Below are positions 5,807 through 63,275 of a DNA stretch of 64,000 bases, piece after piece (position 1 is the first letter of the stretch; every line of letters starts with the position of its first letter). A program made the position numbers and the translations under genes. The notes under the pieces were generated by a model that was not told the origin of the DNA, did not search any database, and was given only the letters and a program-made list of their open reading frames with translations. The DNA lies in assembly GCF_013249065.1 (NCBI RefSeq), contig NZ_JABRWQ010000003.1:372001-436000 (forward strand), in the 5' to 3' direction. Origin of the DNA: Winogradskyella litoriviva. Its GTDB lineage: Bacteria; Bacteroidota; Bacteroidia; Flavobacteriales; Flavobacteriaceae.

Positions 5807-5818
5807 TGATAATTATCA
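5807..5818. promoter_or_regulatory. 12-bp perfect palindrome between wzc and the CBS gene
   Basis: TGATAATTATCA is a perfect palindrome inside the 84-base gap. On the minus strand it is flanked by AATTA and TAATT and followed by TTTT. It could therefore be a weak A/T-rich terminator of the polysaccharide operon or an operator for the CBS gene. It resembles half of a Fur-type site, but that is weak evidence. Confidence 0.3.
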
Positions 5819-5834
5819 CGTAATTAAATTTTAA

Positions 5835-8171
5835 TTACTCTTTACTTCCATAACCATAATTATATCCATAATTATACCCATAACCATAAGATTTATTGGT
5901 ATCTACACTATTTAGTACGTAAGCAATATTTTTTAACTTGCCTGATTCATTTAAATCCTTAGAATAATTTAACAGATTTTTCTCTGTATAGTTAGCTCTT
6001 ACAAGATAAATAGTAGCATCTGCTAATTTGGAGATTAACATTGTATCTGTTACTAAAATTGTTGGTGCAGTATCTACAACTATATAATCGTATTCTTCTC
6101 TTGCTTCTTCTAATAATTTCTCAAAACGACCATTGGTCAATAAATGAGCTGGATTTGGAGGAATACTACCTGATAAAATAATATCATGGTTAGGGTGTTT
6201 TTCAAAGCCCTTAATTAAAGCATCTCTCCAATCATAGTTTACATCATGCAAATAATTAGACAATCCTGGTTTATGTTTTTCTTCCGAAATGTGTGTATGA
6301 ATTTGTGGGTTTCTTAAATCTGCACCAATTAATAACACCTTTCTATTAATACTTGAAAGGGACAACGATAAATTGATACTTACATAAGTTTTACCTTCTC
6401 CTTTTATAGTAGATGTACAAAAAATAATACGCCCGTTATCCTTTTGTTTTATTGGCAATATATAATCTACATTAGAACTTAAAATTCTAAAGGCTTCTGC
6501 CTGTACAGAATTATCTTCTGGATTTTTAAAAATTAATTGATCACTTTTTACTTTAGGTATTTCACCGACTATAGGAATTTTAGGATTCCGTTCCAATAGA
6601 TCTTCTCTTCCCTTTACTTTAGTATTTAATAATTGGATTACATATAAAACTCCAAATGGAATTAATAAACCAGATAAAAGAGCCATTAAATATATACTTC
6701 GAGAATTTGGAAAAATTGGAGAACCTCCAGAAATCGCATACTCAACAACCTTAATTGAAGGTTCGGTTATTGCTAAGTTAATGGCTGCTTCTTCTCTCTT
6801 TTGCAAAAGAAATAAATATAAACTTTGTTTAATTTCACGTTGTCTAGTAATATCAACAATAGCTTTTTCTTTAGCAGGCAAACTATAAACCTGAGAAGAA
6901 AATTTTCTATTTTTTTTAATTAATTGCGCCTTTGAAGTCTTTAATTGTTTCGCATAAGAATCAATAGAAGCAAAAACATTAGACTTCACATCTCTTATTT
7001 TGGACTCTAATTGTAGTACATTTGGGTTATTTTCTCCCGCACTTCTTTTTAAGTTATCACGTTCAAAAACTAGCGAATTATAATTATCAATTAACCCATT
7101 AATGCTAGAATTATCTAAACCAATATTAGCTGGCAATAAATCAGATATAGAATTAGGTTTTTCAACCGACTCTCGTAATCCTTCTGTTATCATCAATTGA
7201 CTATCTAATGCAAATAATTCTTCTTCTGACAATGTTCTTTGAGACATCCCTAGTTCTGCGTCAGACTCAATATTAATAAAATTATTATTTTGCTTATAAT
7301 CTTTTATTCCTACTTCAATAGAGTCTAATTCTTTAGCTAACTTAGTAAAGCGTTCATCAATAAAATCAATTGTACGCCTAGAAACATCTTGTCGATCATT
7401 AATACCATCCTGATTAAAAACATCTATTAAAGTGTTTAATACTCGTTCATTTTTAGATTTACTTTGACTCTTAAAGTTCAATTGCAATAAGTCACTATTT
7501 GCTCCCAGAACTCCCACTTCAATGAGGCCTTTTAATCCATTTGTCACTGCAGCTATAGAAGATAAACTAACTATATAAGTTTTACCTACAAAATTATTAA
7601 TAGGATTAACACTGTTAAGACTTAACTCAAAAGGCAGGTTATGACTAGTTTTTGTAGTGTCAAAACCAGGAAAGTTTAAAGATTTACCTGTTCTTGAAGA
7701 TATAACTTCAAAGGCATTAGGGTTAACAACAATTTTATAAGATGAACTTATATAAATACTATCATTACCTATAGTTTTCACAATATTAAAAGGCAGTTTA
7801 TAAATTTCAGTAGTTAAAACATTACCTTCTTCATAATATCGCATAGTTAAGTCTAAACGATCCACCACGTTTTCAATTATACGATACGATTTTAATATTT
7901 CAATCTCATTTTCTAAATTAATATTAGAACGATTAAATACAAATGCCGAGGATGGCAATTCTAAACCTTTAGTTTTATTTAAAATCTTAATTTTTGCACT
8001 AGCCTTATAAACTTTAGGAGTATATCTTAAATAAATAAATGCGCCGATAAATGTTAAAACAACACTGATAAGGAACCAATACCAAAAATGTAAATATTTG
8101 CGGACTTCTCTTTTAATAGTCTCACCTTGATCATGATTATTCTGATAACTACTCTCTTGAAGTTGACTCAT
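5835..8171 (-). CDS. wzc: Wzc-type polysaccharide co-polymerase with BY-kinase domain
   Basis: This 778-residue inner-membrane protein controls chain length and export of the polymer. The N-terminal Wzz domain has membrane helix 1 at about 29-49, a large periplasmic coiled region (about 50-485), and helix 2 at about 490-515 (YLMALLSGLLIPFGVLYVI). The cytoplasmic kinase starts near 560. Its Walker A is STIKGEGKT at 587-595, Walker A' is LLIGADLRNP near 613-622, and Walker B is IVVDTAP around Asp700. The tail at 762-774 has seven tyrosines at every second residue (YGYGYNYGYNYGY), the autophosphorylation cluster of bacterial tyrosine kinases. In Walker A' the usual first Asp of DxDxR is Gly616. 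wza lies one base upstream. The likely phosphatase partner is the LMW-PTP domain fused at 23554-25317. Confidence 0.93.
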   Translation of the reverse strand: MSQLQESSYQNNHDQGETIKREVRKYLHFWYWFLISVVLTFIGAFIYLRYTPKVYKASAKIKILNKTKGLELPSSAFVFNRSNINLENEIEILKSYRIIENVVDRLDLTMRYYEEGNVLTTEIYKLPFNIVKTIGNDSIYISSSYKIVVNPNAFEVISSRTGKSLNFPGFDTTKTSHNLPFELSLNSVNPINNFVGKTYIVSLSSIAAVTNGLKGLIEVGVLGANSDLLQLNFKSQSKSKNERVLNTLIDVFNQDGINDRQDVSRRTIDFIDERFTKLAKELDSIEVGIKDYKQNNNFINIESDAELGMSQRTLSEEELFALDSQLMITEGLRESVEKPNSISDLLPANIGLDNSSINGLIDNYNSLVFERDNLKRSAGENNPNVLQLESKIRDVKSNVFASIDSYAKQLKTSKAQLIKKNRKFSSQVYSLPAKEKAIVDITRQREIKQSLYLFLLQKREEAAINLAITEPSIKVVEYAISGGSPIFPNSRSIYLMALLSGLLIPFGVLYVIQLLNTKVKGREDLLERNPKIPIVGEIPKVKSDQLIFKNPEDNSVQAEAFRILSSNVDYILPIKQKDNGRIIFCTSTIKGEGKTYVSINLSLSLSSINRKVLLIGADLRNPQIHTHISEEKHKPGLSNYLHDVNYDWRDALIKGFEKHPNHDIILSGSIPPNPAHLLTNGRFEKLLEEAREEYDYIVVDTAPTILVTDTMLISKLADATIYLVRANYTEKNLLNYSKDLNESGKLKNIAYVLNSVDTNKSYGYGYNYGYNYGYGSKE

Positions 8172-35635: not shown

Positions 35636-38600
35636 ATGAAAAAAACTTACATTTTTTATGTTTTGGTTACCCTATTTTCTTTTGGGTTTAGTCAAACTAT
35701 TGCAACTTTTGATCGGGACAATATTGTAGGGCCTACAGCTACTTCTACCGTATCTAATATGTCTGCTATTGGTTTAACTCGAGGTTCAGGTGTAGCACTA
35801 AGCACAACGAACACTAACTTTACATCGAGAAATTGGCCTATTGGAGGGGATCAAGCAACAGCCGCAGCTGGCAATGATTTCATTCAGTGGTCTATCTCCG
35901 CAAACACCGCTTTTGAAATAGACTTAAATGAATTAGACATAAGACTAAGAAGAAATGCAAATGGACCATCAACATGGCAAATATTTTATAGTTTAGATAA
36001 TTTTTCAACTGCAGGTATCGCATTAGATGCACCTCAAACATTAGCATCTTTAGCAACAACATCTTTCAATACATCTGGCTTAACAATTGCATCGGGAGTT
36101 TCTGGAACAATAACCTTTAGATTATATGCATGGGGAGCAACAACCAATGCAGGTTGGCTAAGAGTCATAGGGCAAACATCATGGGCTTCTCCTTTAGCTG
36201 TTGCAAATCCAGGCGTACGTGTTTCTGGTAGTATTACTACATCATCTACGAATAGTATTGATTCAGATATTATAGCTTCTACGTTTGTTTTATTCCCAGT
36301 GCAACAAAATATAGATTACAATTCCACTTACATTACTCCATCTGGACTAAATTTTAGCAACTCAGTTCCATTAGGAGCTTTTACTATTAGAGATGGCGGA
36401 ATAGGAAGTGATATAGATACAGATGGCACTACTTTAACTTCAATTGATTTTGAGGTTACAAATTATGAAAATTTAGCAGCACTAGCTATTATAGATTTAG
36501 GTACGTTTTTATCTGTAGCTGAAGTAACAACAGTGACTTCTACAACCACAATTGATGGATTTAGCATGACAGCGGCAGATGGAGGGACACGACAATTTGT
36601 TGTTTTAGCATCGTTTAAATCTACAGTCACGGATAATGAACAAATACAATTAACAATAACTAACGCTGTTGCACCTGCATCAGGCAGTTCTCTTTTTACG
36701 GATTACAACGCTGGAGGTGCCCAAACATCAATTGTAGGTGACGATAATCGAATAGAAGTTATCGCAAGTAAATTCGAATTTGTACAACAACCTACAGATG
36801 GAAATCTAAACGAAGTAATGGTTCCTTACCCAACTATTAATGCTGTCGATGTTAATTCTAATTTAGATTTAGACGCGAACATTACAGGGATTAGTGTTAA
36901 TGCATCTCCTACAACTGATATTGTTGTAGAAACTTATGACATGATAAATGGTGAAGCAACATTAAATAATGTTGTATTCACAGAGACTGTAACTGGAGTA
37001 AGTCTCGTTGCTAGCTCTACTGATATATCTGGCACAAGTGACACCTTTGACATTAATGGTCCACTAATTAGCTTAGCTGGTCAAAACTTTGATTCAGCGA
37101 CAGACTGGACTTACACAAGTAACAGAGCATATTTTGGTGCAGTTTCAGATTGGGGAGATACAGTTGGATATTTTGGAGAAATTGCATTAGCAAATGCGGC
37201 TCCGCTAAACAATCCTCTTTTTGATGATGAAATTTTTGGAGAAAATGATTTAAATGACACTAACAATCCTTTCGCTACTTTAACATTTGCTGATATTGAC
37301 GTAACGGCATACTCAGATGTACGTATTGAATTTGATTGGCAAGTGCATGGCTATGTAAATAACGCTAACGACATTCAATATCAACTTTTCCTTAACGGAA
37401 GCGGAAGTGGTACATGGGTAAGTGTGTTTGATGGAAATGGAGATATCAATGATGCCACAGGAAGAGTTAAAATTTCTGTACCAGATGGAAACACTACTGT
37501 TGGTTTACAAGTTAGATTGAGAAACAGTTTAGCCAATGGTTATTCAGGCTTTGACAATTTTAGATTAGTTAGCGAATTTAGTGGATTAATCTACACCGAT
37601 AGTAATGGTTGGAAAGATAACATAGAGCCTGATGCCACAACAGGTGCATTAGACGCTATTGTTATAGACGGAACATACGATGTGTCTGGAGATGTACAAT
37701 TAGACAATCTTATAATTAATGAAGGTGCATCAACAGTGCTTAATTTCGGTGAATCCATTACTACTAACTCAAACATAGTTAATATTGGAGATTTAGAACT
37801 TAATTCTATTAGCAGTAGTTATTCTAGTTTAATCGTTAATGGTACTATCGAAAATGAAGTAACATACAATCGCCATGTTAACCAGTTTGCAGATACAGGT
37901 GCTACTACAGGAAAAAATGATTTAGTATCTGCCCCTGTAACAAATAGCAATCAAACATACTTGGCTTTAAGAACTACAAATACACAAATTCCATCTGGAT
38001 TAATTGGTGGTGTAGAATCTTACTTATTTGGTCCTTTTGACAATAACACAAATGCATATATAAACCATACGGCTGCAGATAATGCTACAATTGTTGAGTC
38101 TGGTATTGGATATAGAACAGCATCTACGGCTGCAGCAGGTTCTACATTTGAATTTGTAGGAAATGTAGAAACAGGTACTAAGAGCGTTCCTATTACTTAT
38201 GGTGCTGCTAGTATTCAAAACTTAATTGGAAATCCTTATCCATCATATATTTTATTATCAGAATTTCTATCTGAAAATAGCGCAACCTTTAATACTTTTA
38301 ATTATGGTGTATATGGATACAAAGGTGATGTAATTGATGGTTTTATAGTTTGGAACCAGGCTTATTCTGACGCAAACCCAACTGCTAAAATAGCACCTGG
38401 TCAAGGTTTCTTTGTAGCAGCTCAATCTGGAGGTGGAACAATTAATTTCACTCCTGCAATGAGAACTGTAGGTGCTTCTGACGATTTCATCGTTGGACGT
38501 TCTGAAAACCAAAACTTAGCTAACCTAAGATTACAAGTTGAAAAAGAAGATGCTATCTATACTACTGATTTATACTTTAATGATAACGCTTCATTAGGTA

Positions 38601-39199
38601 TGGATCCTGGTTATGATTCTGCAATGTTTGAAGTAATTTCACCTGAATTTTCTATCTACTCGCATTTAGTACAAGATAATGAAGGTAAAGATTTAGCTGC
38701 ACAATCTGTTAGCTACACTGATTTAGCTAATGTAACTATTCCTTTAGGAATTAATATTTCTCAAGGAGAGCAAGGTACAGTAAGCATAAATGAAAGTTAT
38801 ATCCCAGAGGGTATAGAAGTAATTTTAGAAGATAATGTAGAAAATACATTTACTAACTTGCTAGAAAGTGACTATGTATTTACACCAGCATCTACTTTAA
38901 CAAGTACTGGTCGTTTTTACTTACATGTAGGTACGCAAGGTATACTTGGAGACGAGGACAATGTATTAAATGGTTTACAAATATATACGGTATCTAAAAC
39001 TATATTTATTAAAGGTCAGTTAGAAAACAATACCATATTTAATTTATTTGATGTTCAAGGTAGAATTGTAAATACTCAAGAATTAAATAACAGAAACACA
39101 GAAAACACAATTGATGTGTCTAACCTTTCTTCTGGTATTTACGTAGTACAGTTACAAAGCACTACTGGTACAAGAACTCAAAAAGTTATTATCAAATAA
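35636..39199 (+). CDS. Large T9SS-secreted surface protein, 1187 aa
   Basis: The signal peptide is MKKTYIFYVLVTLFSFGFSQ. The C-terminal ~75 residues are a type A T9SS sorting domain (IFNLFDVQGRIVNTQELNN, then IDVSNLSSGIYVVQLQS, ending TQKVIIK), so the protein is exported and attached or released at the surface. Between lie beta-rich, Thr/Ser/Asn-rich modules. A beta-sandwich covers about 20-205, further repeats about 215-480, a jelly-roll-like domain about 480-650, and a conserved C-terminal block about 745-1100 (LIGNPYPSYILLSEFL, PGQGFFVAA, INFTPAMR). That block and part of the middle recur in the protein at 39625, so they are paralogues. No catalytic motif is recognised; adhesin or matrix protein is a guess. 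Confidence 0.9.
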   Translation: MKKTYIFYVLVTLFSFGFSQTIATFDRDNIVGPTATSTVSNMSAIGLTRGSGVALSTTNTNFTSRNWPIGGDQATAAAGNDFIQWSISANTAFEIDLNELDIRLRRNANGPSTWQIFYSLDNFSTAGIALDAPQTLASLATTSFNTSGLTIASGVSGTITFRLYAWGATTNAGWLRVIGQTSWASPLAVANPGVRVSGSITTSSTNSIDSDIIASTFVLFPVQQNIDYNSTYITPSGLNFSNSVPLGAFTIRDGGIGSDIDTDGTTLTSIDFEVTNYENLAALAIIDLGTFLSVAEVTTVTSTTTIDGFSMTAADGGTRQFVVLASFKSTVTDNEQIQLTITNAVAPASGSSLFTDYNAGGAQTSIVGDDNRIEVIASKFEFVQQPTDGNLNEVMVPYPTINAVDVNSNLDLDANITGISVNASPTTDIVVETYDMINGEATLNNVVFTETVTGVSLVASSTDISGTSDTFDINGPLISLAGQNFDSATDWTYTSNRAYFGAVSDWGDTVGYFGEIALANAAPLNNPLFDDEIFGENDLNDTNNPFATLTFADIDVTAYSDVRIEFDWQVHGYVNNANDIQYQLFLNGSGSGTWVSVFDGNGDINDATGRVKISVPDGNTTVGLQVRLRNSLANGYSGFDNFRLVSEFSGLIYTDSNGWKDNIEPDATTGALDAIVIDGTYDVSGDVQLDNLIINEGASTVLNFGESITTNSNIVNIGDLELNSISSSYSSLIVNGTIENEVTYNRHVNQFADTGATTGKNDLVSAPVTNSNQTYLALRTTNTQIPSGLIGGVESYLFGPFDNNTNAYINHTAADNATIVESGIGYRTASTAAAGSTFEFVGNVETGTKSVPITYGAASIQNLIGNPYPSYILLSEFLSENSATFNTFNYGVYGYKGDVIDGFIVWNQAYSDANPTAKIAPGQGFFVAAQSGGGTINFTPAMRTVGASDDFIVGRSENQNLANLRLQVEKEDAIYTTDLYFNDNASLGMDPGYDSAMFEVISPEFSIYSHLVQDNEGKDLAAQSVSYTDLANVTIPLGINISQGEQGTVSINESYIPEGIEVILEDNVENTFTNLLESDYVFTPASTLTSTGRFYLHVGTQGILGDEDNVLNGLQIYTVSKTIFIKGQLENNTIFNLFDVQGRIVNTQELNNRNTENTIDVSNLSSGIYVVQLQSTTGTRTQKVIIK

Positions 39200-39624: not shown

Positions 39625-42600
39625 ATGAGAAATTTTTACGCGTTTTTATTACTAATTTTAATTGGAAATTTTGGGTTTGGACAGACAACAGTCATCTATG
39701 ACTTTTCTGCATCAGGGGCAGTTTCTGGTTTCAACGAACCAGCACCAGGAATTGACTTAGATAGCAATATAGGTTTTGGTAGTTTTAGAAATTCTGGAAC
39801 TTCCAACCCAGGAATATTTAGCAATCAACTTCGTCTTTATCAAAATGCTACAAAAGGAGGATCAATAGTAATTTACGCAAGAAATGGTGTTACCATTACT
39901 AAAGTTGTAGTTAATGCTTCATCTCGTACGGGAGATGCTGGATACACCGTAGATAGTGGCACTCAAACCAATTTAACAGGAAGTTCTACTTATACAATTG
40001 ATGGCATATCTGGCATCACTGAAGTTGAATTTTTTCAAAAAGATAGTGGTAGTTCTAATAGAATTTATGTTGACAGTTTTGAAGTTACTTATACCTCTAC
40101 ATCTTCTGGTCCAGAAGACCCGTCAACATTTACAGCAGCCACATTTTCATCCACACAAATAGATTTAGCATACGCAGAAAACGCAGCATCAGATAATGTG
40201 GTTATTGTTTTTGATACAGATAATTCATTTACTACCCCTTCTGGTATACCTGCAACAGTAGGCAATGCGTTCGCTGGCGGTACCGTTTTATTAGACAGTA
40301 ATGGTACTGGCATATATAATCACACAGGCTTAGCTGCTGGTACTACATACTACTATATGGCATATTCATATGATTCAGTTGCAGATGAATATTCTGCTGG
40401 TCTGAGTGCAGATGCTACAACACCTATCGCTTGTCCTGCAATATCAAATTTAACTATTGATAGTTTCACTGATAGTGAAGTCACTGTAAGTTGGACAGGT
40501 GGTAATACTGAAGTAGATTGGGAAATCGTTGTTCAAGATAATGGATTAGCTGCTCCTACTTCAGGAACTGCAACTTCTACCAATCCACATACGTGGTCAG
40601 GTCTATCAGAACTTACCGCATACGATGTATATGTAAGAGCAGATTGTGATACGGATGGTTTTAGTACTTGGGTTGGTCCAGTTACATTCACAACTGAACC
40701 ATCTTGTCCTACAATTTCAAATATAACTATTGATAGTTTCACTGACAGTGAAGTTACCGTAAGTTGGACAAATGGTGACTCTGAAGCAGACTGGGAAATC
40801 GTTGTTCAAGATAGTGGATTAGCTGCTCCTACTTCAGGAACTGCAACTTCTACCAATCCACATACGTGGTCAGGTCTATCAGAACTTACCGCATACGATG
40901 TATATGTAAGAGCAGATTGTGATACGGATGGTTTTAGTACTTGGGTTGGTCCAGTTACATTCACAACTGAACCATCTTGTCCTGCAATTTCAAATATAAC
41001 TATTGATAGTTTCACTGATAGTGAAGTCACTGTAAGTTGGACAAATGGTGACTCTGAAGCAGACTGGGAAATCGTTGTTCAAGATAATGGATTAGCTGCT
41101 CCAACTTCAGGCACTGCAACTTCTACCAATCCACACACGTGGTCAGGTTTATCAGCTATAACTGCTTATGACGTCTATGTAAGAGCAGATTGTGATACGG
41201 ATGGATTCAGTACTTGGGTTGGCCCAGTAACATTTACAACAGCTTGTGCTATTTATACACCAAACTATACACAAGACTTCTCTTCTATTATTCCAGAATG
41301 TTGGGATGAAGCAGACAGTGGAAATCAAGCTTCAGGGCCTTCTAGCTTAGGGAGTAGCTTATGGACAGAAGACGGTTATTTAAATAGTGGCGCTACGGGT
41401 GCTTATAGAATAAATCTATTTACAACTGGCAAAAGCGACTGGCTTTTATCACCTCAATTTGATTTAACAGGTGGTCCTTTTCAAGTTGGGTTTGATATTG
41501 GTATTTTAGAATGGAATTCAACTGACACAGCAGGTACTTTAGGATCTGATGATATCGTACAATTATTAATTTCAAATGATAATGGTTCTACATGGACAGC
41601 ACTAGTTACTTTTGATAGTAGTTCTGTTGTACCTGCAACAGGTACTACCGTAGCCTACAATTTATCAGCCTATACTGGCCAAACGGTTCAATTTGGAATT
41701 TACGCTTCAGAAGGTTCTACTGATAACGATGAAGACAACGATATATTTATTGACAACTTTAACGTTGTTGAAGCAAAAGATGCAGACACAGGAGTAAATG
41801 CTGCAACTCCTCAAATTTTAGGAAGTACTATTACTGCAGCTGATGCAACAACTGTTGGCACTGCATTTGAAGTTATAGGCTTTGAAGTACAAGATCAAGG
41901 GACTAGTGATGGACTACCTACTAATATTACAACAATGCGTTTTGTACCTGGCGCAAACAATACGGCAGACTGGACAGACTTTATACAAGGTGTGACATTA
42001 AAAGATGGAAATTTAGTAACGCATACACCAACAGTTTCAATAACAGATACTGAAATTGAGTTGACATTTGGTACGTCTATTTCAGTCACAGATAATTCTG
42101 CTTTAGAATTTTCATTAGGGATTTACCTTAATACAACAAACATCGTTGATGGGAGTGTGATTCAACTTCAAATAGATGAATCAGGCAGTTTAGATGCTAA
42201 TGCTTCAGGTTCTGATTTCATTGACCCTTATACCTTTGGTGATGTAATTGGAAATGATTTTATAATAGATGTTGATGCAACAGAATTAGCTTACATAGTG
42301 CAACCTAGTACTACTTTTATAAACACGGCTATGTCGCCAAACGTAGAAATTGCATATACCGATGCCAATGGTAATATAGACGTTGATTATTCTGGTTCAG
42401 GATACGACATTTCTGTAACCACAGATGGTAATTTTAGTGGTATAGCGACACTAACTGCTGAGGCAACTGATGGTATTGCTGTTTTTGACAACTTAGTTTT
42501 TGACACTTTAGCTACAGGAATTAAATTAACTGCTACGGATGATTCACCCCTTATTACGGGTGCTTATGATTCAGATTTGTTTGATATAGAGAGTATTCCT

Positions 42601-44715
42601 GTAGGCCCTGTAATTATTGTAATTCAAGATTTTGATAGCACCACACCAGAATGGACTTATACATTAACACCATCTGAAAACAGTGCTGCTTGTGTTTCAA
42701 ACAATGATGTATGGAATGTTGTAAGTAGTCTAGGGAACGTCACTGTCCCTAACAGTACAGGTGATTTTTTCGGAGGTCGAGATTTAAATGGAGCTACAGG
42801 TTGTGGAACAACAGGAACTGGAACTATAGATTTTGACTCCGTAGATGTTTCTGCATATACTAATATTACTCTTACTTTTGACTATGAAATAGATGGTTTT
42901 AATTCTTTTTCTGACAAGTTAAGTTATATAGCTACATTTGACTCTGTTAACGAATCACGTGTATATTTATGTCAAGGCTGTAATGACCAAGATGTTGAAG
43001 GTACTGTAAGTATCGATGTTCCTGATGGAACCAATACAGTTAGCCTGCAAATATTAGCTAGTTTCGATGGTGCTAGTGATTATTTTGGAGTGGATAATTT
43101 CAAAATTGAAGGAACAATACCTCCTACAACATACACCTACAACGGCACTTGGTCACCAAGTGATCCAGATGGTGTTTCGTTAGCTAGTGAAGCTATTGTT
43201 ATTGAATCTGGTAGCACCTCACTTACTACAGATACAGACATTAATACAGTAACTATAAATCCTGGTGCTGGTTTAACTATAGATGCTGGTGTTACTTTAA
43301 CAGTTACAACAGATTTAACGTTAGAGTCTAACTCTACAAGTTATGCAAGTTTAATTTCTGACGGTACCATTTCTGGTACAGTTATTTATAAGAGACACGT
43401 TAACACATTTAACAATACTTCAGGTAGTACTAATGGCCAAAATGATTTAATATCTGCACCAGTTACCAATGCTAGTCAAGATTTTGGTACTTTTAGAGGA
43501 GTTAACAACAACATACCTTCAGGTACTGTAGCAGGTGATGTAACAACATACTATTTGTTTGGGCCATATGATAACAACGAGGCTACTAGTCCTTATACCT
43601 TATTTTCAGATGCAGATGACGCTACAGTAATCACTGCAGGAACTGGCTATAGAACAGCATCTACAGATACATCAACATTTACGTTTACTGGTGATGTATT
43701 ATCTGGCATAGTACCCGTAACTATAACAACAGGAAGTGACAATGCATGGAACTTAATTGGTAACCCTTACCCATCTTACATAAATAGTTCGGATTTCTTA
43801 AATGAAAACTTCGATAGTTTTGATTCAGAATTTATAGGTATATATGGTTATGATGGTGATGCTTCAAATGGTTGGACAGTTATTAATTTGGCTAACGCTA
43901 CAGACATAACACCTGGACAAGGATTTATGGTACTTACTGACCAAGCAAGCGCCACTGTAAACTTTACTCCTGCTATGAGAAGAGATTCAGGTAGTGATGA
44001 TTTTATTGTAGGAAGATCTGCAGATATTAATGCGCATTTTAGTTTAAAGATAGAAAATAATAATACTGCTTACACAACAGATTTTTATTTTAACAGTAAT
44101 ACTACAAGAGGTTTAGACCCAGGTTATGATACTGCAATATTTACAGCACAATTACCAGATTTATATGTTTACTCGCACTTAGTTGAAAATAACACTGGAC
44201 GTGCAATGGCAATTCAATCACTTGGCAGTACAGATCTAACAGACGTAACTATACCATTAGGCGTAAATGCTAATGACTCAGAGCAAATAACATTTAGTAT
44301 CGATGAATCTACATTACCAAATATTGTAGAAGTCTATTTAGAAGATAATGTAGAAAACACATTTACGTTATTAACTGCAGGAGACTATACCGTAACTCCT
44401 AATACTAATTTAACTGGAACGGGTCGTTTTTACTTAAGATATACAACTACAGCACTTTCTACATCAGAAACTTCTTTAGATAACTTAAGTATTTTTAATA
44501 ACACAAGTGAAAAGACTATTGTAGTTTCTGGTCAACTACTTGAGGACACCAAAGCCAACTTATACGACATTCAAGGTCGTTTAGTTACTAAATCGTTGTT
44601 AAACAGTAGTAATAGACTGCAAAATATTGATGTAAGCAATTTAAGTACAGGTGTTTATGTCATTGAATTAATAAACGAAACTCAAACTAAAACACAAAAA
44701 GTAATTATACGATAA
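39625..44715 (+). CDS. Giant T9SS-secreted protein with fibronectin-III-like repeats, 1696 aa
   Basis: The signal peptide is MRNFYAFLLLILIGNFGFGQ. A beta-sandwich (about 21-155) and an FN3-like unit (about 160-268) come first. Three almost identical 91-residue FN3-like repeats follow (about 270-540, each with DSFTDSEVTVSW and AYDVYVRADCDTDGFSTWVG). A MAM/choice-of-anchor-type jelly roll spans about 541-715 (WLLSPQFDLTGGPFQVGFDI). Modules shared with the protein at 35636 come next, then the same C-terminal block (LIGNPYPSYINSSDFL, PGQGFMVL, VNFTPAMR) and a type A T9SS sorting domain ending TQKVIIR. It is probably a cell-surface or secreted adhesive protein; no enzyme motif is seen. A terminator follows at 44731. 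Confidence 0.92.
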   Translation: MRNFYAFLLLILIGNFGFGQTTVIYDFSASGAVSGFNEPAPGIDLDSNIGFGSFRNSGTSNPGIFSNQLRLYQNATKGGSIVIYARNGVTITKVVVNASSRTGDAGYTVDSGTQTNLTGSSTYTIDGISGITEVEFFQKDSGSSNRIYVDSFEVTYTSTSSGPEDPSTFTAATFSSTQIDLAYAENAASDNVVIVFDTDNSFTTPSGIPATVGNAFAGGTVLLDSNGTGIYNHTGLAAGTTYYYMAYSYDSVADEYSAGLSADATTPIACPAISNLTIDSFTDSEVTVSWTGGNTEVDWEIVVQDNGLAAPTSGTATSTNPHTWSGLSELTAYDVYVRADCDTDGFSTWVGPVTFTTEPSCPTISNITIDSFTDSEVTVSWTNGDSEADWEIVVQDSGLAAPTSGTATSTNPHTWSGLSELTAYDVYVRADCDTDGFSTWVGPVTFTTEPSCPAISNITIDSFTDSEVTVSWTNGDSEADWEIVVQDNGLAAPTSGTATSTNPHTWSGLSAITAYDVYVRADCDTDGFSTWVGPVTFTTACAIYTPNYTQDFSSIIPECWDEADSGNQASGPSSLGSSLWTEDGYLNSGATGAYRINLFTTGKSDWLLSPQFDLTGGPFQVGFDIGILEWNSTDTAGTLGSDDIVQLLISNDNGSTWTALVTFDSSSVVPATGTTVAYNLSAYTGQTVQFGIYASEGSTDNDEDNDIFIDNFNVVEAKDADTGVNAATPQILGSTITAADATTVGTAFEVIGFEVQDQGTSDGLPTNITTMRFVPGANNTADWTDFIQGVTLKDGNLVTHTPTVSITDTEIELTFGTSISVTDNSALEFSLGIYLNTTNIVDGSVIQLQIDESGSLDANASGSDFIDPYTFGDVIGNDFIIDVDATELAYIVQPSTTFINTAMSPNVEIAYTDANGNIDVDYSGSGYDISVTTDGNFSGIATLTAEATDGIAVFDNLVFDTLATGIKLTATDDSPLITGAYDSDLFDIESIPVGPVIIVIQDFDSTTPEWTYTLTPSENSAACVSNNDVWNVVSSLGNVTVPNSTGDFFGGRDLNGATGCGTTGTGTIDFDSVDVSAYTNITLTFDYEIDGFNSFSDKLSYIATFDSVNESRVYLCQGCNDQDVEGTVSIDVPDGTNTVSLQILASFDGASDYFGVDNFKIEGTIPPTTYTYNGTWSPSDPDGVSLASEAIVIESGSTSLTTDTDINTVTINPGAGLTIDAGVTLTVTTDLTLESNSTSYASLISDGTISGTVIYKRHVNTFNNTSGSTNGQNDLISAPVTNASQDFGTFRGVNNNIPSGTVAGDVTTYYLFGPYDNNEATSPYTLFSDADDATVITAGTGYRTASTDTSTFTFTGDVLSGIVPVTITTGSDNAWNLIGNPYPSYINSSDFLNENFDSFDSEFIGIYGYDGDASNGWTVINLANATDITPGQGFMVLTDQASATVNFTPAMRRDSGSDDFIVGRSADINAHFSLKIENNNTAYTTDFYFNSNTTRGLDPGYDTAIFTAQLPDLYVYSHLVENNTGRAMAIQSLGSTDLTDVTIPLGVNANDSEQITFSIDESTLPNIVEVYLEDNVENTFTLLTAGDYTVTPNTNLTGTGRFYLRYTTTALSTSETSLDNLSIFNNTSEKTIVVSGQLLEDTKANLYDIQGRLVTKSLLNSSNRLQNIDVSNLSTGVYVIELINETQTKTQKVIIR
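40432..41244 (+). repeat. Three tandem 273-bp FN3-encoding repeats
   Basis: Unit starts are at 40432, 40705 and 40978, each opening with TGTCCT and each 273 bp (the third is 267 bp). Long stretches are identical at the DNA level: about 160 bases around 40546-40710 recur at 40819-40983. This indicates recent in-frame duplication or gene conversion within the coding sequence. Confidence 0.92.
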
Positions 44716-44998: not shown

Positions 44999-45166
44999 AT
45001 GAAGAAAGATAATAACAAAGACAAGATTACACGTAAAGAAGCCATTTCTAAAATGGGAAAATATGCTGCATTAACTGCGGTAGGAACATTTGTAATATTA
45101 AATCCTCTAAAAGCTCAAGTAGCATCTCAACCTGCTGACCCAGGAGGAAATCCTTTCAGTAATTAA
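44999..45166 (+). CDS. 55-residue peptide with export-signal-like leader; candidate modified-peptide precursor
   Basis: An ATG at 44999 opens a 55-codon frame ending in TAA at 45164-45166. The N-terminus is Lys/Asp/Asn-rich, followed by ITRKEAISKMGKYAALTA, which resembles a Tat-type signal with RK in place of RR. Then comes a hydrophobic stretch (VGTFVILNP) and KAQ, a possible cleavage site. What remains is a short tail, VASQPADPGGNPFSN, with two serines (one penultimate) and a Pro/Gly centre. The 15-base gap to the kinase-like gene and the shared direction indicate one operon. Known lasso-peptide kinases modify a C-terminal Ser, so the SN end is suggestive. That it is a precursor is inference; that it is a real gene is supported by codon sense, the -7 element and operon position. 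Confidence 0.7.
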   Translation: MKKDNNKDKITRKEAISKMGKYAALTAVGTFVILNPLKAQVASQPADPGGNPFSN

Positions 45167-45181
45167 TATTCAAGATTTATT

Positions 45182-46312
45182 TTGAACAATAGCTTATCAC
45201 CAACTTATCAAAAAAAGATAGGTGATATGTGGTTATTGTGGTTTGCAGTATCTAATAGTTATAGTATTGTAGATAACGAATTTAAAGTTATTTTAGATTC
45301 TTATTTAACAGCAGAAACAAAGAAAAGCTTCGACCTCTTTATTACAAAGAAATACCCATTTCAAAATGCCTCTGTAATAACGGATTCAATTGAAGATTAT
45401 TTAACCCGAAGTAATATTTCTATTTCTAAGGATGAAACTGAAAAAGTCCAACTTGATACTTGCTATAAAAATATAACAAAGCTTTACGCGATTAACAAAA
45501 AAATAATTAAAGTTAATTACGATTCTGAGCTTGTATTAAAAACAATTCATCCATCTATCGCTTATACTTCGATAATAACAAATGATTCTGTTGATACTAC
45601 CTTTGATATCTATTTAAAAAATGATATTTTATATTTATTCCAAGAAAATTTATTAATTACAAGTGCTCCTAAATTAGAATACCACAAAATTCAGGGTAAA
45701 TTTATAATGCAACTGCTTTGCACTATTCACAATAAAATTGAAAGTGATTGGATTGGTTCATTTCATGGATCAACCATAACCGACGGTAACTCTTCTATTT
45801 TAATGGTTGGTGAATCTGGAAAAGGAAAAAGCACACTATGTGCACTATTAACCGCAAATGGATTTAACTTGTTAGCAGATGATGTATCACCAATGTTATC
45901 AAAAGACAAAGCTATTTATTATAATCCTGCTGCTATTTCAATAAAAGAAGGTGCTTTTTCAATACTTGAAAACGTAATAGATGACTTTAAAGATTTACCA
46001 CCAATACTATTTAATAAACAAAAAGGTACTTTAAAATATTTACCTTGTATAAAGCCAGAGCAATCGCATTACCCTTGTAATGCTGTAATTTTAGTAAACT
46101 ATAAGGAGAATTCTAATACAATATTAACAGAAGTATCGGTTAAAAGGATGTTAGAAACTATAATTCCAGATTCTTGGTTATCACCAAAGCCGTATCACGC
46201 AAAGCAATTTTTAGAATGGCTTTCTCATATTAAAGTCTACGAACTTACCTATAGTGATATTAAAGATGTAACTAAGAAAGTTTCATATTTATTTGAATCA
46301 CTGAGTAAATAG
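45182..46312 (+). CDS. HPr kinase-like protein with N-terminal PqqD/RRE-like region
   Basis: The 376-residue frame is counted from TTG at 45182; the first ATG is codon 17 (45230). Residues about 12-85 (WLLWFAVSNSYSIVDNEFKVILDSYL, read as two blocks, then FDLFITKKYPF) resemble a PqqD-type RiPP recognition element: a beta hairpin then helices. The C-terminal half has HPr kinase motifs: SFHGST with His195 (catalytic HG), the P-loop GESGKGKST at 210-218, and LLADDVSPM with Asp233/Asp234. HPr itself and PTS genes are absent, and this type occurs in RiPP clusters (paeninodin-type lasso peptide kinases). Its likely substrate is the peptide encoded just upstream, in the same reading frame five codons after its stop. 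The kinase call is strong; the RRE call is moderate. Confidence 0.82.
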   Translation: MNNSLSPTYQKKIGDMWLLWFAVSNSYSIVDNEFKVILDSYLTAETKKSFDLFITKKYPFQNASVITDSIEDYLTRSNISISKDETEKVQLDTCYKNITKLYAINKKIIKVNYDSELVLKTIHPSIAYTSIITNDSVDTTFDIYLKNDILYLFQENLLITSAPKLEYHKIQGKFIMQLLCTIHNKIESDWIGSFHGSTITDGNSSILMVGESGKGKSTLCALLTANGFNLLADDVSPMLSKDKAIYYNPAAISIKEGAFSILENVIDDFKDLPPILFNKQKGTLKYLPCIKPEQSHYPCNAVILVNYKENSNTILTEVSVKRMLETIIPDSWLSPKPYHAKQFLEWLSHIKVYELTYSDIKDVTKKVSYLFESLSK

Positions 46313-46350
46313 TTATTATAATATTTATATTACAAGTAGATTAGTAACTT

Positions 46351-47382
46351 ATGAGTGACTACGAAAAAACTTACAAAGACATTGCCGACATTTTAAGTTT
46401 TAAAACTTTAAATAGCGAGTTAGAACACAGACTAAATGACTCTTCATATAATTGGGATGGAATAGTTGTTGAAGCTAGTAAAAGTCTCGTACTTCCTGCA
46501 GTGTATTGCAGATTAAAAGCGCGTAAACTTCTACATTTATTACCTAAAGAATTAACTGTTTATCTCGAAGAAATTTCTACCGTTAATAGAAATAGAAATA
46601 AGTCAATTTTAAAGCAAGTATTATTTATTTCTAAAGTTTTAAATGACAACAATATAGCGCACGTATTTTTAAAAGGAACTGCACTATTAGCCGCAGGAAA
46701 GTACAATGATATAGCTGAACGAATGGTTGGAGATATTGATATTCTTGTAGAAAAATCTCAAATTCATGAAGCCTTTGATATTTTAAAATCAAGTGGATAC
46801 AATAAGACATTTGGATATGCATACGAGACTAAACATTTTAGACATTTGGATAGGCTAATTTCTGAAGATGAACTTGCAGCCATCGAAATTCACTCTGACT
46901 TACTTATTAAAAAATTCCGTCATTTAATTAACCTTTCTACACTACTAAAGACTAGAGTGATTATTAATAATGTAGCGATACCAAACTCGTATTATTTAAG
47001 TTTGCATCAAATATGGAGTTGGCAGCTTAATGATAGAGGGCATTATTACAATTTTCCAAGTATAAAAGTTTTATATGATGTTATTGTTGTTAATTCCCAT
47101 AAGGACAATGATTTTATTTCCAATGTTTTAAAACTCAATTATGGTCAATCGTTTTTAGAATTAGGAAAGTACTATTTCAAGGAATTTTCGTTTATTACAT
47201 CTAATACTTACATGAAGTATATTCGATATTCTCATAAAATAAACATGACGTACAAACCTATAAGAATAACTTTATTAATTATTAAATCATCTTTATATAA
47301 CATTGGGAAGCGAATACACCTTCTAATTACAAATAGAAGTTATACAAAACACCTTCTAAACAAGTTATTTTCAACAAAATAA
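46351..47382 (+). CDS. NTP_transf_5-family nucleotidyltransferase
   Basis: This 343-residue protein of the uncharacterised nucleotidyltransferase family (PF14907 type) has the Pol-beta-like motif: VFLKGTALLAAG with Gly109-Thr110, then VGDIDILV with the metal-binding Asp128 and Asp130. ETKHFRHLDRLI and AIEIHSDLLIKKFRH follow, where the third carboxylate is expected at Glu in AIEIH. It is 38 bases downstream of the kinase-like gene. In lasso-peptide clusters this family sits beside the HPrK-like kinase, and the pair is thought to build on a phosphorylated Ser. Here it probably completes a three-gene operon. The substrate is unknown. Confidence 0.82.
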   Translation: MSDYEKTYKDIADILSFKTLNSELEHRLNDSSYNWDGIVVEASKSLVLPAVYCRLKARKLLHLLPKELTVYLEEISTVNRNRNKSILKQVLFISKVLNDNNIAHVFLKGTALLAAGKYNDIAERMVGDIDILVEKSQIHEAFDILKSSGYNKTFGYAYETKHFRHLDRLISEDELAAIEIHSDLLIKKFRHLINLSTLLKTRVIINNVAIPNSYYLSLHQIWSWQLNDRGHYYNFPSIKVLYDVIVVNSHKDNDFISNVLKLNYGQSFLELGKYYFKEFSFITSNTYMKYIRYSHKINMTYKPIRITLLIIKSSLYNIGKRIHLLITNRSYTKHLLNKLFSTK

Positions 47383-60379: not shown

Positions 60380-61909
60380 TTATTCAATGTTTAATTTTTC
60401 TAAATGAATATCTAACGTTTTTTCTTTTCTATTATATTCTAATATCATTACATGACCCAGTTTTGCTGGTAGAACTCTATACTTAACTTTACCTGTTGAT
60501 CTATTTAAGTAAATTTTATCTTCAGTTAAAGCACCATCATTATAAATAATTGATTTAAAAGCTAATTTATTTTTTTCACCTTTTAATCTTTCATAATCAA
60601 TAAAAGTAGCATAGAAACGATCCCTATCTTTATCAATTTGAGTAAACTCGTAATCAAAAGCACCTAAATTTTTAAGTACATGTGCATTTAGTTGTGGGCT
60701 TCCAAAATCAGCTAAGTTTGGTGCTCTAGATTTACCTTTTTCTATTTGATGAATTTCCTTTAGATTAAAATTCTCATCAAATTCAAAAAACACGGCATCT
60801 GTTATAGTCAACTGGGTCATTCCACTACCTACTTGACCAGTCAGCAATGTTCCCTTTAAACTTACCGTTTTTCTATATTTTTCTCCAATACCAAAATAAG
60901 ACCCATCTTGTGTACGGATAATATCGTGAAAATACACATAAGTATTCTTCTTTTTCTTACCATCTGAATCTGGTGGCATCATTTTATTAATCTTACTTTC
61001 CCAATCTGCTTTTACATCAGATATCATATTACCAGACAAATCTACTACTTGGGCAAACAATCCTTCACTTTTAGTTTTAATAACATTGTCACCCTTTTTA
61101 AAGTACTCACCTAAAAGAACCAAATTATTTTCTTTTGTAAGAAATGCGTTTGTTATTAACCTTGGATTGTCTTCTCTACTAAAATCTTTATCAAAAAGTT
61201 TTTTACCCGTTTTTATATCAATTACAATAATTTTCATATCTATTGTAGACGATAATTTTGTTTTTTTTGAAGTTTCTAATGCTACAACAACTTTTTCATT
61301 AGCTTCAATAGGGTTTATAGACATAATTTCCTTTGCTTCTTCTGGAGAATTATAGTCCCAAGACTTACCATTATTAGTAGAAATATATTTTAATCCATAT
61401 CCTATTTTTTTATTATCCTTAACATAATTAAAAAGAAAACCATTGTCATCTACCGGAAATAGTAAATTAAAGTTTCCGCTTTTCATCATATAACTTAACC
61501 AACGTACGTCTTTATTTGAAACTTCAATTTTAATATCATCTCCTTTGTTACCTTGTTTGTCAAATGATACAAGTTTGTAAAATTTTTCTCTTACGTTTAC
61601 CATAGCAAACATTAGGGACTGATTGTTAAATTTACTCTGAACAAGCACTGTGCTTTTATCATCTATGTAAGACTTTGTGGCTATATCATTAAGATTATTA
61701 TCTAACATTTTAATGGCATACTCTCGTTTGCCTTTTTTTAACTTATCTACCTCATAATAAAAATAATAACCATCTACATCATTATTGTTATCTATAAATG
61801 ATCCTGAATTTCTAATCTTAAAAGATGTGATTTCATTTAAGGACTTTTGTTGTGCATATACACTTAAACTAATAACACTTACTAGTACGATAAAAAATAG
61901 TTTTTTCAT
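60380..61909 (-). CDS. Unrecognised secreted protein, 509 aa
   Basis: The frame is open from 61966, but MKKLFFIVLVSVISLSVYAQ at 61909 is a clear signal peptide, so I start there. The rest is Lys/Asp-rich, with repeated short strand-turn units (SFKIRNSGSFI, YKLVSFDKQGN, NNLVLLGEYFKKGDNV, DGSYFGIGEKYRKTVSLK) that suggest a beta-propeller. No family or catalytic motif is recognised. It follows the M48 protease gene by only 10 bases on the same strand, so the two may act together in the periplasm. Confidence 0.85.
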   Translation of the reverse strand: MKKLFFIVLVSVISLSVYAQQKSLNEITSFKIRNSGSFIDNNNDVDGYYFYYEVDKLKKGKREYAIKMLDNNLNDIATKSYIDDKSTVLVQSKFNNQSLMFAMVNVREKFYKLVSFDKQGNKGDDIKIEVSNKDVRWLSYMMKSGNFNLLFPVDDNGFLFNYVKDNKKIGYGLKYISTNNGKSWDYNSPEEAKEIMSINPIEANEKVVVALETSKKTKLSSTIDMKIIVIDIKTGKKLFDKDFSREDNPRLITNAFLTKENNLVLLGEYFKKGDNVIKTKSEGLFAQVVDLSGNMISDVKADWESKINKMMPPDSDGKKKKNTYVYFHDIIRTQDGSYFGIGEKYRKTVSLKGTLLTGQVGSGMTQLTITDAVFFEFDENFNLKEIHQIEKGKSRAPNLADFGSPQLNAHVLKNLGAFDYEFTQIDKDRDRFYATFIDYERLKGEKNKLAFKSIIYNDGALTEDKIYLNRSTGKVKYRVLPAKLGHVMILEYNRKEKTLDIHLEKLNIE

Positions 61910-61919
61910 TTTTATTATA

Positions 61920-63275
61920 TTATTGATTAATGGATTCAAAAAAATTATAAACGATGACTCCTTCATCGTTAGACAATAAAATATCTTTTTGCGTTTGGCA
62001 AAATGCCCATCCTATTTTTTTAGTTTCATTAAGTTCTAGGTTGTGCAAAAACAAACGGATTGTATTGAGTTGTTTTTCATCTGAAAACTTATTTATTTGA
62101 GGAACATATTTCCCTAAATGATGTTGTTTTTTGGCCTCATAAATTGACTTCAACACCTTTGCCATTGTGTTATAATAATAATCTGAAGTGATTTGCTGAT
62201 TTTGAAACCTTTCTATTAACTGATAAATGGCCAAGTCTAATAACTTTAAATCAATAGCACTTTTTATACTTTGAGGATTTGCAATCTTTTTAATTTTGTT
62301 GATTTCAGTTTGCGTATCGGTAACCAATTCATCTTTGATGCTAAAATCTTCTCTTAGCTTATTTATTCTAAATTCAATTTCTGGATGGGTTTTTAATGTA
62401 TCTGAAGTAAGTTTAAATTCATTTATTTTTTCTTCCGAATCAAAAATGGAGACCGTCTCTTTTAACCAATATTTTTTAAAAGGATAAGATTCAAAATTAA
62501 ATACACTATCAATGTTTACATGGTGATTTAAAAACATATCGTCATCATCCGCCTTTAATTTATCTAAAGAACTTAACGCTTTAGTTTTAGAATATTTAGT
62601 CTTAGAAAAAAACACAAATCCTAATGAATCTGCTTCTGCTTCAACCTCTTTAGAATGGTCTAAAATATCAATACTTAAATTATCTATAACAGACATTGCA
62701 GCCCTTGTTTGTCCGTATTTCTGCCTTTTTATTTCCTTAACTTTCTTTTTGGTATCTTCAGAATTAATTGTTGCAATAACATTTGAAACATTTTTTAAAG
62801 AATGTTCTAAATATTTATGCGCTATCTCGTGGCAAATAACAAATGCCAATTCGTCATCAGACTCTAATGTGGTAAACAAACCTAAGTTAATTTGAAACAT
62901 ACCATCACCATAGCAGGCAGCATTTGGTAACATGGAGTGATTAATAAAAAAACTAAAATCCGTAGTATCTATTTCAGGGTTGGCGCTATAAATATTTGAA
63001 AGTATAACACGTAAATGTTCCTTTATTTCTGGTATAAATACGTAACTACTATCCTCTATAGATTTTAAGACTTTTTCATCTCTATCTTTAAAGACTTTCT
63101 TAACTTTTGACGAAAACGGACCATCAATTTTATCTATAAAATTAGAATTTATCCTTTTAAGATAATTCTCTATTTTATCAATATCTTCTGGTATATACTC
63201 ATTAACTTTTTCTTGAGCATAATTTAATTGATAAAGCAGTATAAACAGTAAGACCTTGAAATATTTAGAATACAT
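61920..63275 (-). CDS. Secreted M48-family zinc metalloprotease
   Basis: This 451-residue protein has the signal peptide MYSKYFKVLLFILLYQLNYA, with likely cleavage at Ala20. The zinc motif HEIAH is at 149-153 (VICHEIAHKYLEH) with the upstream segment LPNAACYGDGMFQINLGLF, and the third ligand lies in KEVEAEADSLGF (about 210-216). This is the M48/BepA-like arrangement of periplasmic quality-control proteases. The C-terminal 170 residues are helical, perhaps TPR-like. It is likely co-transcribed with the unknown gene at 60380. Confidence 0.9.
   Translation of the reverse strand: MYSKYFKVLLFILLYQLNYAQEKVNEYIPEDIDKIENYLKRINSNFIDKIDGPFSSKVKKVFKDRDEKVLKSIEDSSYVFIPEIKEHLRVILSNIYSANPEIDTTDFSFFINHSMLPNAACYGDGMFQINLGLFTTLESDDELAFVICHEIAHKYLEHSLKNVSNVIATINSEDTKKKVKEIKRQKYGQTRAAMSVIDNLSIDILDHSKEVEAEADSLGFVFFSKTKYSKTKALSSLDKLKADDDDMFLNHHVNIDSVFNFESYPFKKYWLKETVSIFDSEEKINEFKLTSDTLKTHPEIEFRINKLREDFSIKDELVTDTQTEINKIKKIANPQSIKSAIDLKLLDLAIYQLIERFQNQQITSDYYYNTMAKVLKSIYEAKKQHHLGKYVPQINKFSDEKQLNTIRLFLHNLELNETKKIGWAFCQTQKDILLSNDEGVIVYNFFESINQ

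Follow-up and report, generated by a model that had tools for sequence, protein, structure and literature searches.

The question raised by this locus is what a gene for a small peptide, followed by genes for an HPr-kinase-like enzyme and a nucleotidyltransferase-fold enzyme, is doing directly behind genes for large secreted proteins in Winogradskyella litoriviva. The window analysed here, meaning the whole stretch of 64,000 nucleotides (assembly GCF_013249065.1, contig NZ_JABRWQ010000003.1, positions 372,001 to 436,000), lies in a genome labelled G000; other G and L numbers are likewise labels of genomes and loci. A preliminary description, made from the letters of this stretch, had reported three genes on one strand at 44999-47382 as a candidate modified-peptide system. 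The open reading frames (ORFs) were confirmed, with gaps of 15 bases between peptide and kinase and 38 bases between kinase and nucleotidyltransferase. In the list below, RRE stands for the recognition element of ribosomally synthesized and post-translationally modified peptides (RiPPs).

44999..45166, plus strand: precursor peptide ORF, ATG start, 55 residues
45182..46312, plus strand: HPr-kinase-like enzyme ORF with an RRE-like N-terminus, TTG start, 376 residues
46351..47382, plus strand: NTP_transf_5 nucleotidyltransferase-fold enzyme ORF, ATG start, 343 residues

Sequence comparison across genomes indicates that four components, namely a leader peptide, an HPr-kinase-like enzyme, an NTP_transf_5 enzyme and type A proteins of the type IX secretion system (T9SS) with a shared domain, co-occur and are mostly adjacent. 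The kinase and transferase probably decorate an invariant serine of the peptide, and the near-constant company of this set with one T9SS protein family suggests an unrecognised way to equip such proteins. We give about even chances to the reading that this is a ribosomal-peptide modification system serving a subset of T9SS cargo. The T9SS proteins with their shared C-terminal domain are the main partner, which the preliminary description had missed. The module exceeds 44999-47382, and the two T9SS proteins encoded upstream belong to it; so, in Winogradskyella and some other genera, does the beta-barrel gene downstream.

35636..39199, plus strand: second T9SS type A protein of the module, 1187 residues, Por_Secre_tail match at E 2.5e-11
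37784..38953, plus strand: unnamed C-terminal domain of the 1187-residue protein, 464.5 bits to profile A5, of which its own sequence is a row
38999-39196, plus strand: T9SS signal of the 1187-residue protein, from the T9SS-signal scan
39625..44715, plus strand: T9SS type A protein of 1696 residues, with fibronectin type III (fn3) repeats, fn3 and Por_Secre_tail matches; upstream partner of the peptide
43300..44472, plus strand: unnamed C-terminal domain of the 1696-residue protein, 475.5 bits to profile A5, of which its own sequence is a row
44494-44712, plus strand: T9SS signal of the 1696-residue protein, converted from contig coordinates
47630..48205, plus strand: small outer-membrane beta-barrel protein, 191 residues, OMP_b-brl match at E 2.7e-7

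The shared domain occupies about 380 residues ahead of the T9SS signal, and none of 23 members gave a Pfam or NCBIfam match to it at E 0.01. Both T9SS proteins of the window match the C-terminal signal, as do all 40 scanned domain proteins from other genera (type A signal, TIGR04183, E 0.01 or better); genome-wide, the signal is matched 58 times in the 3.9 Mb of G000. The proteins encoded next upstream of the peptide were compared in 93 cases, 53 from Winogradskyella and 40 from other genera. All but one carry the domain at 262 bits or more (92 of 93), the exception being a 312-residue ORF in L083. At 325 residues from the C-terminus, 92 of the 93 proteins match at least 70 others; at 425 residues the number is 85, and at 525 it is zero. 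Counted from the peptide, a domain protein is encoded within 700 bases upstream of 41 of 47 ORFs in other genera and 52 of 56 in Winogradskyella. The ten peptide ORFs without one at that distance comprise two at contig ends (L128, L085), three extra or broken copies (L126, L143, L152), three whose domain protein lies farther off (L051, L083, L155) and two with none upstream (L073, L150). The fn3 repeats at 40353-41030 of the 1696-residue protein are near-identical to one another.

Within the genus, 68 Winogradskyella genomes were compared. The kinase is encoded in 56 of them (51 of the 59 better assemblies) and the peptide in 55, every one of which is a kinase genome; the only kinase genome without a peptide match, G049, has a 206-residue kinase match in an assembly that is 79% complete. 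The kinase lies less than 400 bases downstream of 55 of the 56 peptide ORFs of the genus, with a median gap of 16. Looking for the same trio in relatives had been proposed before, and its co-occurrence proved to be conserved: of the 56 kinase loci of the genus, 53 have an intact peptide with the same leader immediately ahead of the kinase. The remaining loci are one at a contig end (L034), one with a frameshifted peptide (L033) and one with a single ambiguous base, read as X (L074). The genome with the frameshifted copy, G030, also encodes an intact peptide, which ends in SSSPPDPGGNPFD and follows a different domain protein. When the proteins of the 56 loci were clustered, the kinase, the nucleotidyltransferase and the beta-barrel were found in all 56 and the large secreted upstream proteins in 52; the beta-barrel homologue is on the same strand in 55, and genes further downstream vary. 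No lasso gene was found among these four clusters, which are those present in at least 52 of the 56 loci (window genes were only partly scanned with Pfam), and neither was a dedicated exporter or protease. This agrees with the earlier view of a tailoring kinase, a nucleotidyltransferase-fold enzyme and a precursor with an export-like leader that together differ from a lasso-peptide system.

Across the family, the peptide profile matched 39 of the 395 genomes sampled. These belong to 22 of the 203 genera and have up to six copies each; in the order sample, one genome has seven peptides. Scanning named genomes turned up 497 related stretches; among the 80 best are ones from Psychroserpens, Gelidibacter, Lutibacter, Xanthomarina, Subsaxibacter and Arcticiflavibacter. 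In these 80 loci, which overlap the Winogradskyella set and are not summed with it, 77 of 85 peptide ORFs follow a domain protein. Evenly drawn samples of the phylum (392 genomes) and the order (246 genomes) each had 7 matched genomes, and one match in the phylum sample, in another family, was false. Since both samples are dominated by large genera, absence elsewhere in the phylum cannot be concluded.

The co-occurrence extends through the family sample. All 37 family genomes with an unbroken peptide have the kinase, although its gene is split in G104, carries a single in-frame stop in G345 and runs into a contig end in G380. It was not found in any of the 33 peptide-less genomes tested, nor in the two genomes with broken peptides, G316 and G334. 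These two are the only peptide-only genomes, and on the sequence their kinase loss and broken peptides are a case of joint decay. The broken peptide of G334 (L126) adjoins a domain gene in pieces, and the peptide match of G316 (L124) contains three stops. The cargo domain, at E 1e-45 or better, is found in 40 of the 395 family genomes, 37 of which are peptide genomes (Fisher 5e-46 for the co-occurrence of peptide and domain, relatedness not corrected). Among the matches listed for 46 genomes, scores of at least 190 bits to the domain are confined to 13 peptide genomes plus G039, G043 and G050; likewise among the matches listed, the best domain score is 120 bits in 19 peptide-less family genomes and 93 bits in 9 other kinase-less genomes of the genus. 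The loci L300, L301 and L302, of G172, G349 and G363, hold a more distant form of the domain, at 200-280 bits. Outside Winogradskyella the large upstream protein is usually retained and the beta-barrel gene is often missing; its absence beside the peptide in many genera led us to reject the downstream beta-barrel as an essential part.

The arrangement of the components is not fixed. In G339, G444 and G174, peptides stand behind T9SS proteins (in G174, one of two), with a single kinase-nucleotidyltransferase pair elsewhere, and in G421 the pair is also encoded apart from the peptide. The locus L153 has the order peptide, nucleotidyltransferase, kinase, the usual order being peptide, kinase, nucleotidyltransferase. 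In Lutibacter agarilyticus (L143 / L262), about 6 kb contain three peptides, a complete kinase and two kinase fragments, on the sequence the product of local duplication and decay.

Neither Pfam nor NCBIfam has a match for the window peptide. Its relatives were compared as 144 distinct peptides, that is, 146 minus two fragmentary ones (L033/L003 and L131); in a few cases the 144 contain truncated sequences or overlapping reads of the same gene, and L126 belongs to a broken gene. Two features of the peptide are conserved across the set:

about residues 1-40, ITRKEAISKMGKYAALTAVGTFVILNPLKAQ, plus strand: signal-like leader of the peptide, conserved across the 144 distinct peptides
45125..45127, plus strand: codon of Ser43, putative phosphorylation site and, behind the leader, the hydroxyl position common to all peptides; Ser in 143 of the 144 distinct peptides, Thr in 1

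Ser43 (window numbering) lies shortly past a signal-peptidase-like A-x-A and ahead of a Pro/Gly-rich tail, for example SPPDPGGNPFD or SPEAPGSGF. The only peptide with Thr at this position is that of L086, and the hydrophobic part of the leader is better conserved than the tail. The L086 peptide (G048, oriented 5810-5956) is followed by a second, divergent copy of the kinase that shares 32% identity with that of the window. A second locus of G233, L131, is a decayed peptide-like stretch with a profile match containing an in-frame TAA; this genome also has an intact peptide and kinase.

The site of modification had first been sought in the Ser of the PADPGGNPFSN tail, and here the comparison gave a different answer. 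No Ser is present beyond the junction region in 112 of the 144 distinct peptides, Ser falls within the last four residues in only 21, and among peptides shorter than 62 residues the last residue is Ser in 9 and Asp, the commonest, in 69. A tail Ser is thus mostly absent and is not the site in most relatives; tail-Ser modification was rejected on comparison of the 144 peptides, and the conserved hydroxyl is that of Ser43. A stand-alone modified peptide phosphorylated at the Ser of its PFSN tail would suit the window peptide, which has that Ser, and would resemble the lasso kinases, which in the accounts cited below modify a C-terminal Ser, but given these same counts we regard it as extremely improbable.

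The leaders of 143 peptides were aligned at the place of a twin-arginine motif. The first position is Arg in all 143, and the second is Lys in 134, Asn in 6, Gln in 2 and Thr in 1; it is Arg in 0, and the Arg-Arg of twin-arginine translocation (Tat) signals occurs in none of the 143 aligned leaders. TatC was found in all 37 peptide genomes. Judged by its sequence, the leader resembles a Tat signal in which Arg-Lys mostly replaces the twin arginine, and it may direct Tat-like or, equally, Sec export. A match outside the family, in G614 (E 7e-4), was rejected as a peptide gene: it covers the N-terminal end of a hydrolase-like ORF of 302 residues that has a twin-arginine motif, and as such only shows the likeness of the leader to a Tat signal.

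Several tail types can coexist in one genome, and such variety could mean that the peptide, phosphorylated and decorated at its Ser43, is secreted in free form as a signal or an antimicrobial RiPP, with the T9SS proteins being receptors or co-regulated surface proteins and not assembly partners. The likeness of the enzymes to RiPP tailoring enzymes and the short Pro/Gly-rich tail behind a signal-like leader would fit this as well. We nevertheless think it unlikely, as the peptide is tightly linked to one cargo domain even where the kinase and nucleotidyltransferase are encoded elsewhere, and the clusters conserved in at least 52 of the 56 loci include no dedicated exporter or protease.

The second gene had been described as having full HPr-kinase motifs, and His195, Lys216, Asp233 and Asp234 of its product are indeed invariant in all 21 aligned relatives. 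The match to Hpr_kinase_C of Pfam is below the cut-off (E 3e-4). The best match, and the closest named kinase family by sequence, is HprK_rel_A (TIGR04352), which is confined to the catalytic part (residues 194-367, E 1e-16) and also falls below its cut-off, with 60.9 bits against 200. HprK_rel_A kinases occur alongside a PqqD-like protein and a nucleotidyltransferase. A structure was predicted for the window kinase with a pLDDT of 90.8 and its fold was compared with known structures, including by a Foldseek search. Residues 86-376 of the model match phosphoenolpyruvate carboxykinases (Z 13.8, root-mean-square deviation 5.5) and residues 189-376 match HprK/P (Z 11.3, root-mean-square deviation 2.8, 126 residues aligned). 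One further feature concerns the remainder of the protein:

45182..45421, plus strand: N-terminus of the kinase, modelled as three strands and three helices; possibly an RRE that binds the leader

An RRE part of the kinase had been suggested before. In the model, the first 80 residues are predicted to form three strands and three helices, in an order of elements that fits an RRE winged helix; a sequence match did not emerge. PqqD was absent among the Pfam matches listed for 21 kinases, and a PDB sequence profile search gave nothing convincing, with winged helices of heat-shock factors ranking best at E 0.04. The listed fold matches of the model contained neither a PqqD nor an RRE structure, in a search that barely covered residues 1-85. 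From the model, the kinase N-terminus is a possible leader-binding RRE.

The third gene was correctly placed in the NTP_transf_5 family from the start. Its product matches PF14907 at E 5e-28, with 98.7 bits against a gathering cut-off of 31.2, and its Lys108-Gly109 and Gly127-Asp128-x-Asp130 are invariant in 21 aligned relatives. The predicted structure has a pLDDT of 94.1 and its fold matches are weak: MenT1 at E 3e-4, ANT(2'') at 3e-3 and FKRP at 0.03. Only four rows fall below E 0.001, all of them MenT1, and the FKRP rows are merely suggestive. FKRP transfers a sugar-alcohol phosphate from a CDP-linked donor.

Taken together, the components could act as follows. The kinase would bind the conserved leader, perhaps through its RRE-like N-terminus, and then phosphorylate Ser43 in the cytosol. 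The nucleotidyltransferase-fold enzyme would put a nucleotidyl group on the Ser43 phosphate or, by the precedent of PsmN considered below, a hexosyl group. The modified precursor would cross the inner membrane by means of its signal-like leader and be cleaved near AQA/xS, which would yield a short peptide whose N-terminus lies close to the modified Ser. Together with the C-terminal domain of the T9SS proteins, this peptide would assist assembly or anchoring in a cargo-specific way, and one enzyme pair could serve several peptides, just as one peptide may serve several cargo proteins.

A number of observations weigh against this proposal. Three Winogradskyella genomes, G039, G043 and G050, have strong domain matches and neither kinase nor peptide; their assemblies are fragmented (160-210 contigs), and that of G043 is nevertheless rated 99% complete. 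G172, G349 and G363 carry weaker domain matches without peptide or kinase. These three rank among the four lowest best domain scores of the 40 family genomes with the domain, and a divergent peptide or kinase near the domain was looked for in them and none was found. Some peptides (L073, L150) have no upstream domain protein, and the RRE assignment lacks sequence support in both the Pfam comparison of 21 kinases and the PDB profile search. Cargo and peptide numbers also differ, G000 having five strong domain proteins to one peptide and one kinase. For this reason a strict pairing of one cargo with one peptide was rejected as a general rule, even though domain proteins and peptides are near one-to-one in G339 (seven to six) and G444 (six to six).

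Upstream of the module, the window contains a long run of genes with polysaccharide genes on the minus strand (5331-35184), which stops just short of the T9SS genes of the module. It encodes Wzz/tyrosine-kinase-like and Poly_export proteins, glycosyltransferases, a GDP-mannose-dehydratase-like epimerase, a Wzy-like ligase and an acyltransferase. Proteins resembling 3'-phosphoadenosine-5'-phosphosulfate (PAPS) reductase and inositol phosphatase are also encoded there, and these hint at a sulfated surface glycan. On the other side of the module, the protein encoded at 60380-61966 on the minus strand matches the uncharacterised family DUF6770 across nearly its full length.

Such a neighbourhood brings in a further possibility, that the kinase and nucleotidyltransferase have another target, for example a glycan precursor, a small molecule or the T9SS protein itself, and that the peptide stays uncleaved in the membrane as an adaptor or chaperone for the cargo or the enzymes. 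Besides the large polysaccharide cluster upstream, the stronger conservation of the hydrophobic leader part than of the tail and the occurrence of peptides apart from the enzymes speak for it. A universal Ser/Thr within an otherwise variable tail is harder to accommodate, as are the precedents, in the accounts cited below, of such kinases acting on a precursor peptide, and we judge this possibility to be rather improbable.

If modification at Ser43 in the service of T9SS cargo is taken as the working reading, the nearest known systems are those of lasso peptides. Enzyme pairs of this sort are known from peptide tailoring. As in PadeK/ThcoK (paeninodin) and in PsmK with PsmN (pseudomycoidin), as far as the cited accounts describe them, an HPr-kinase-like kinase and an annotated nucleotidyltransferase are found beside a precursor peptide. 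The window kinase keeps the His-Lys-Asp-Asp residues that form the motif of lasso-peptide tailoring kinases (PMC9266682), and in pseudomycoidin PsmN adds hexoses to the phosphoserine made by PsmK (PMC9266682, PMC8498205). The lasso systems of these accounts modify the C-terminal Ser of the precursor and have genes for a cyclase, a leader protease (B1/B2 leader-removal proteins) and an exporter nearby, whereas here the conserved hydroxyl sits just after the leader and the conserved set includes none of those genes. Also unlike lasso systems, the precursor here has a signal-like leader and a T9SS protein as its partner.

No description of the peptide family, the cargo domain or their coupling was found in the profile libraries (Pfam, NCBIfam) or the open-licence literature searched, and no published coupling of a modified ribosomal peptide to T9SS cargo was found in that literature. 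If the coupling to T9SS proteins is physical, this would be a new kind of system, in which small exported modified peptides would act in the cell's own secretion or surface assembly, and it would open a testable way to learn how large surface proteins are equipped or anchored in some Flavobacteriaceae. The system would also offer a two-enzyme test of what NTP_transf_5 proteins transfer.

Among T9SS systems, the gene order recalls type B cargo, for which a cognate PorP/SprF shuttle gene lies directly downstream and orphan cargo can share a shuttle (PMC12618676). In that account, as here, a cargo gene is followed by a cargo-specific partner gene; the module differs in having type A signals and, as partner, a short peptide of modified type and not a shuttle barrel. 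A second comparison is with the seryl and glycyl linking sugars of P. gingivalis and T. forsythia, in which the acceptor is amide-bonded to the C-termini of T9SS cargo (PMC7468200, PMC13086638), and by analogy with which we hypothesise an attachment role for the peptide. In the Wbp/Vim pathway with its PorU sortase, as those sources present it, the amino acid of the linking sugar is presumably added by VimA and is not a ribosomal peptide as it is here. One form that attachment might take, by this analogy and with a small chance of being right, is that of a ribosomally encoded linker, the phospho-glycosylated Ser being, after export, at or near the new N-terminus, whose amine would be the acceptor for a sortase such as PorU that joins it to the domain-bearing T9SS cargo. 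The peptide would then be a gene-encoded counterpart of the Porphyromonas seryl linking sugar, tying cargo to a surface glycan.

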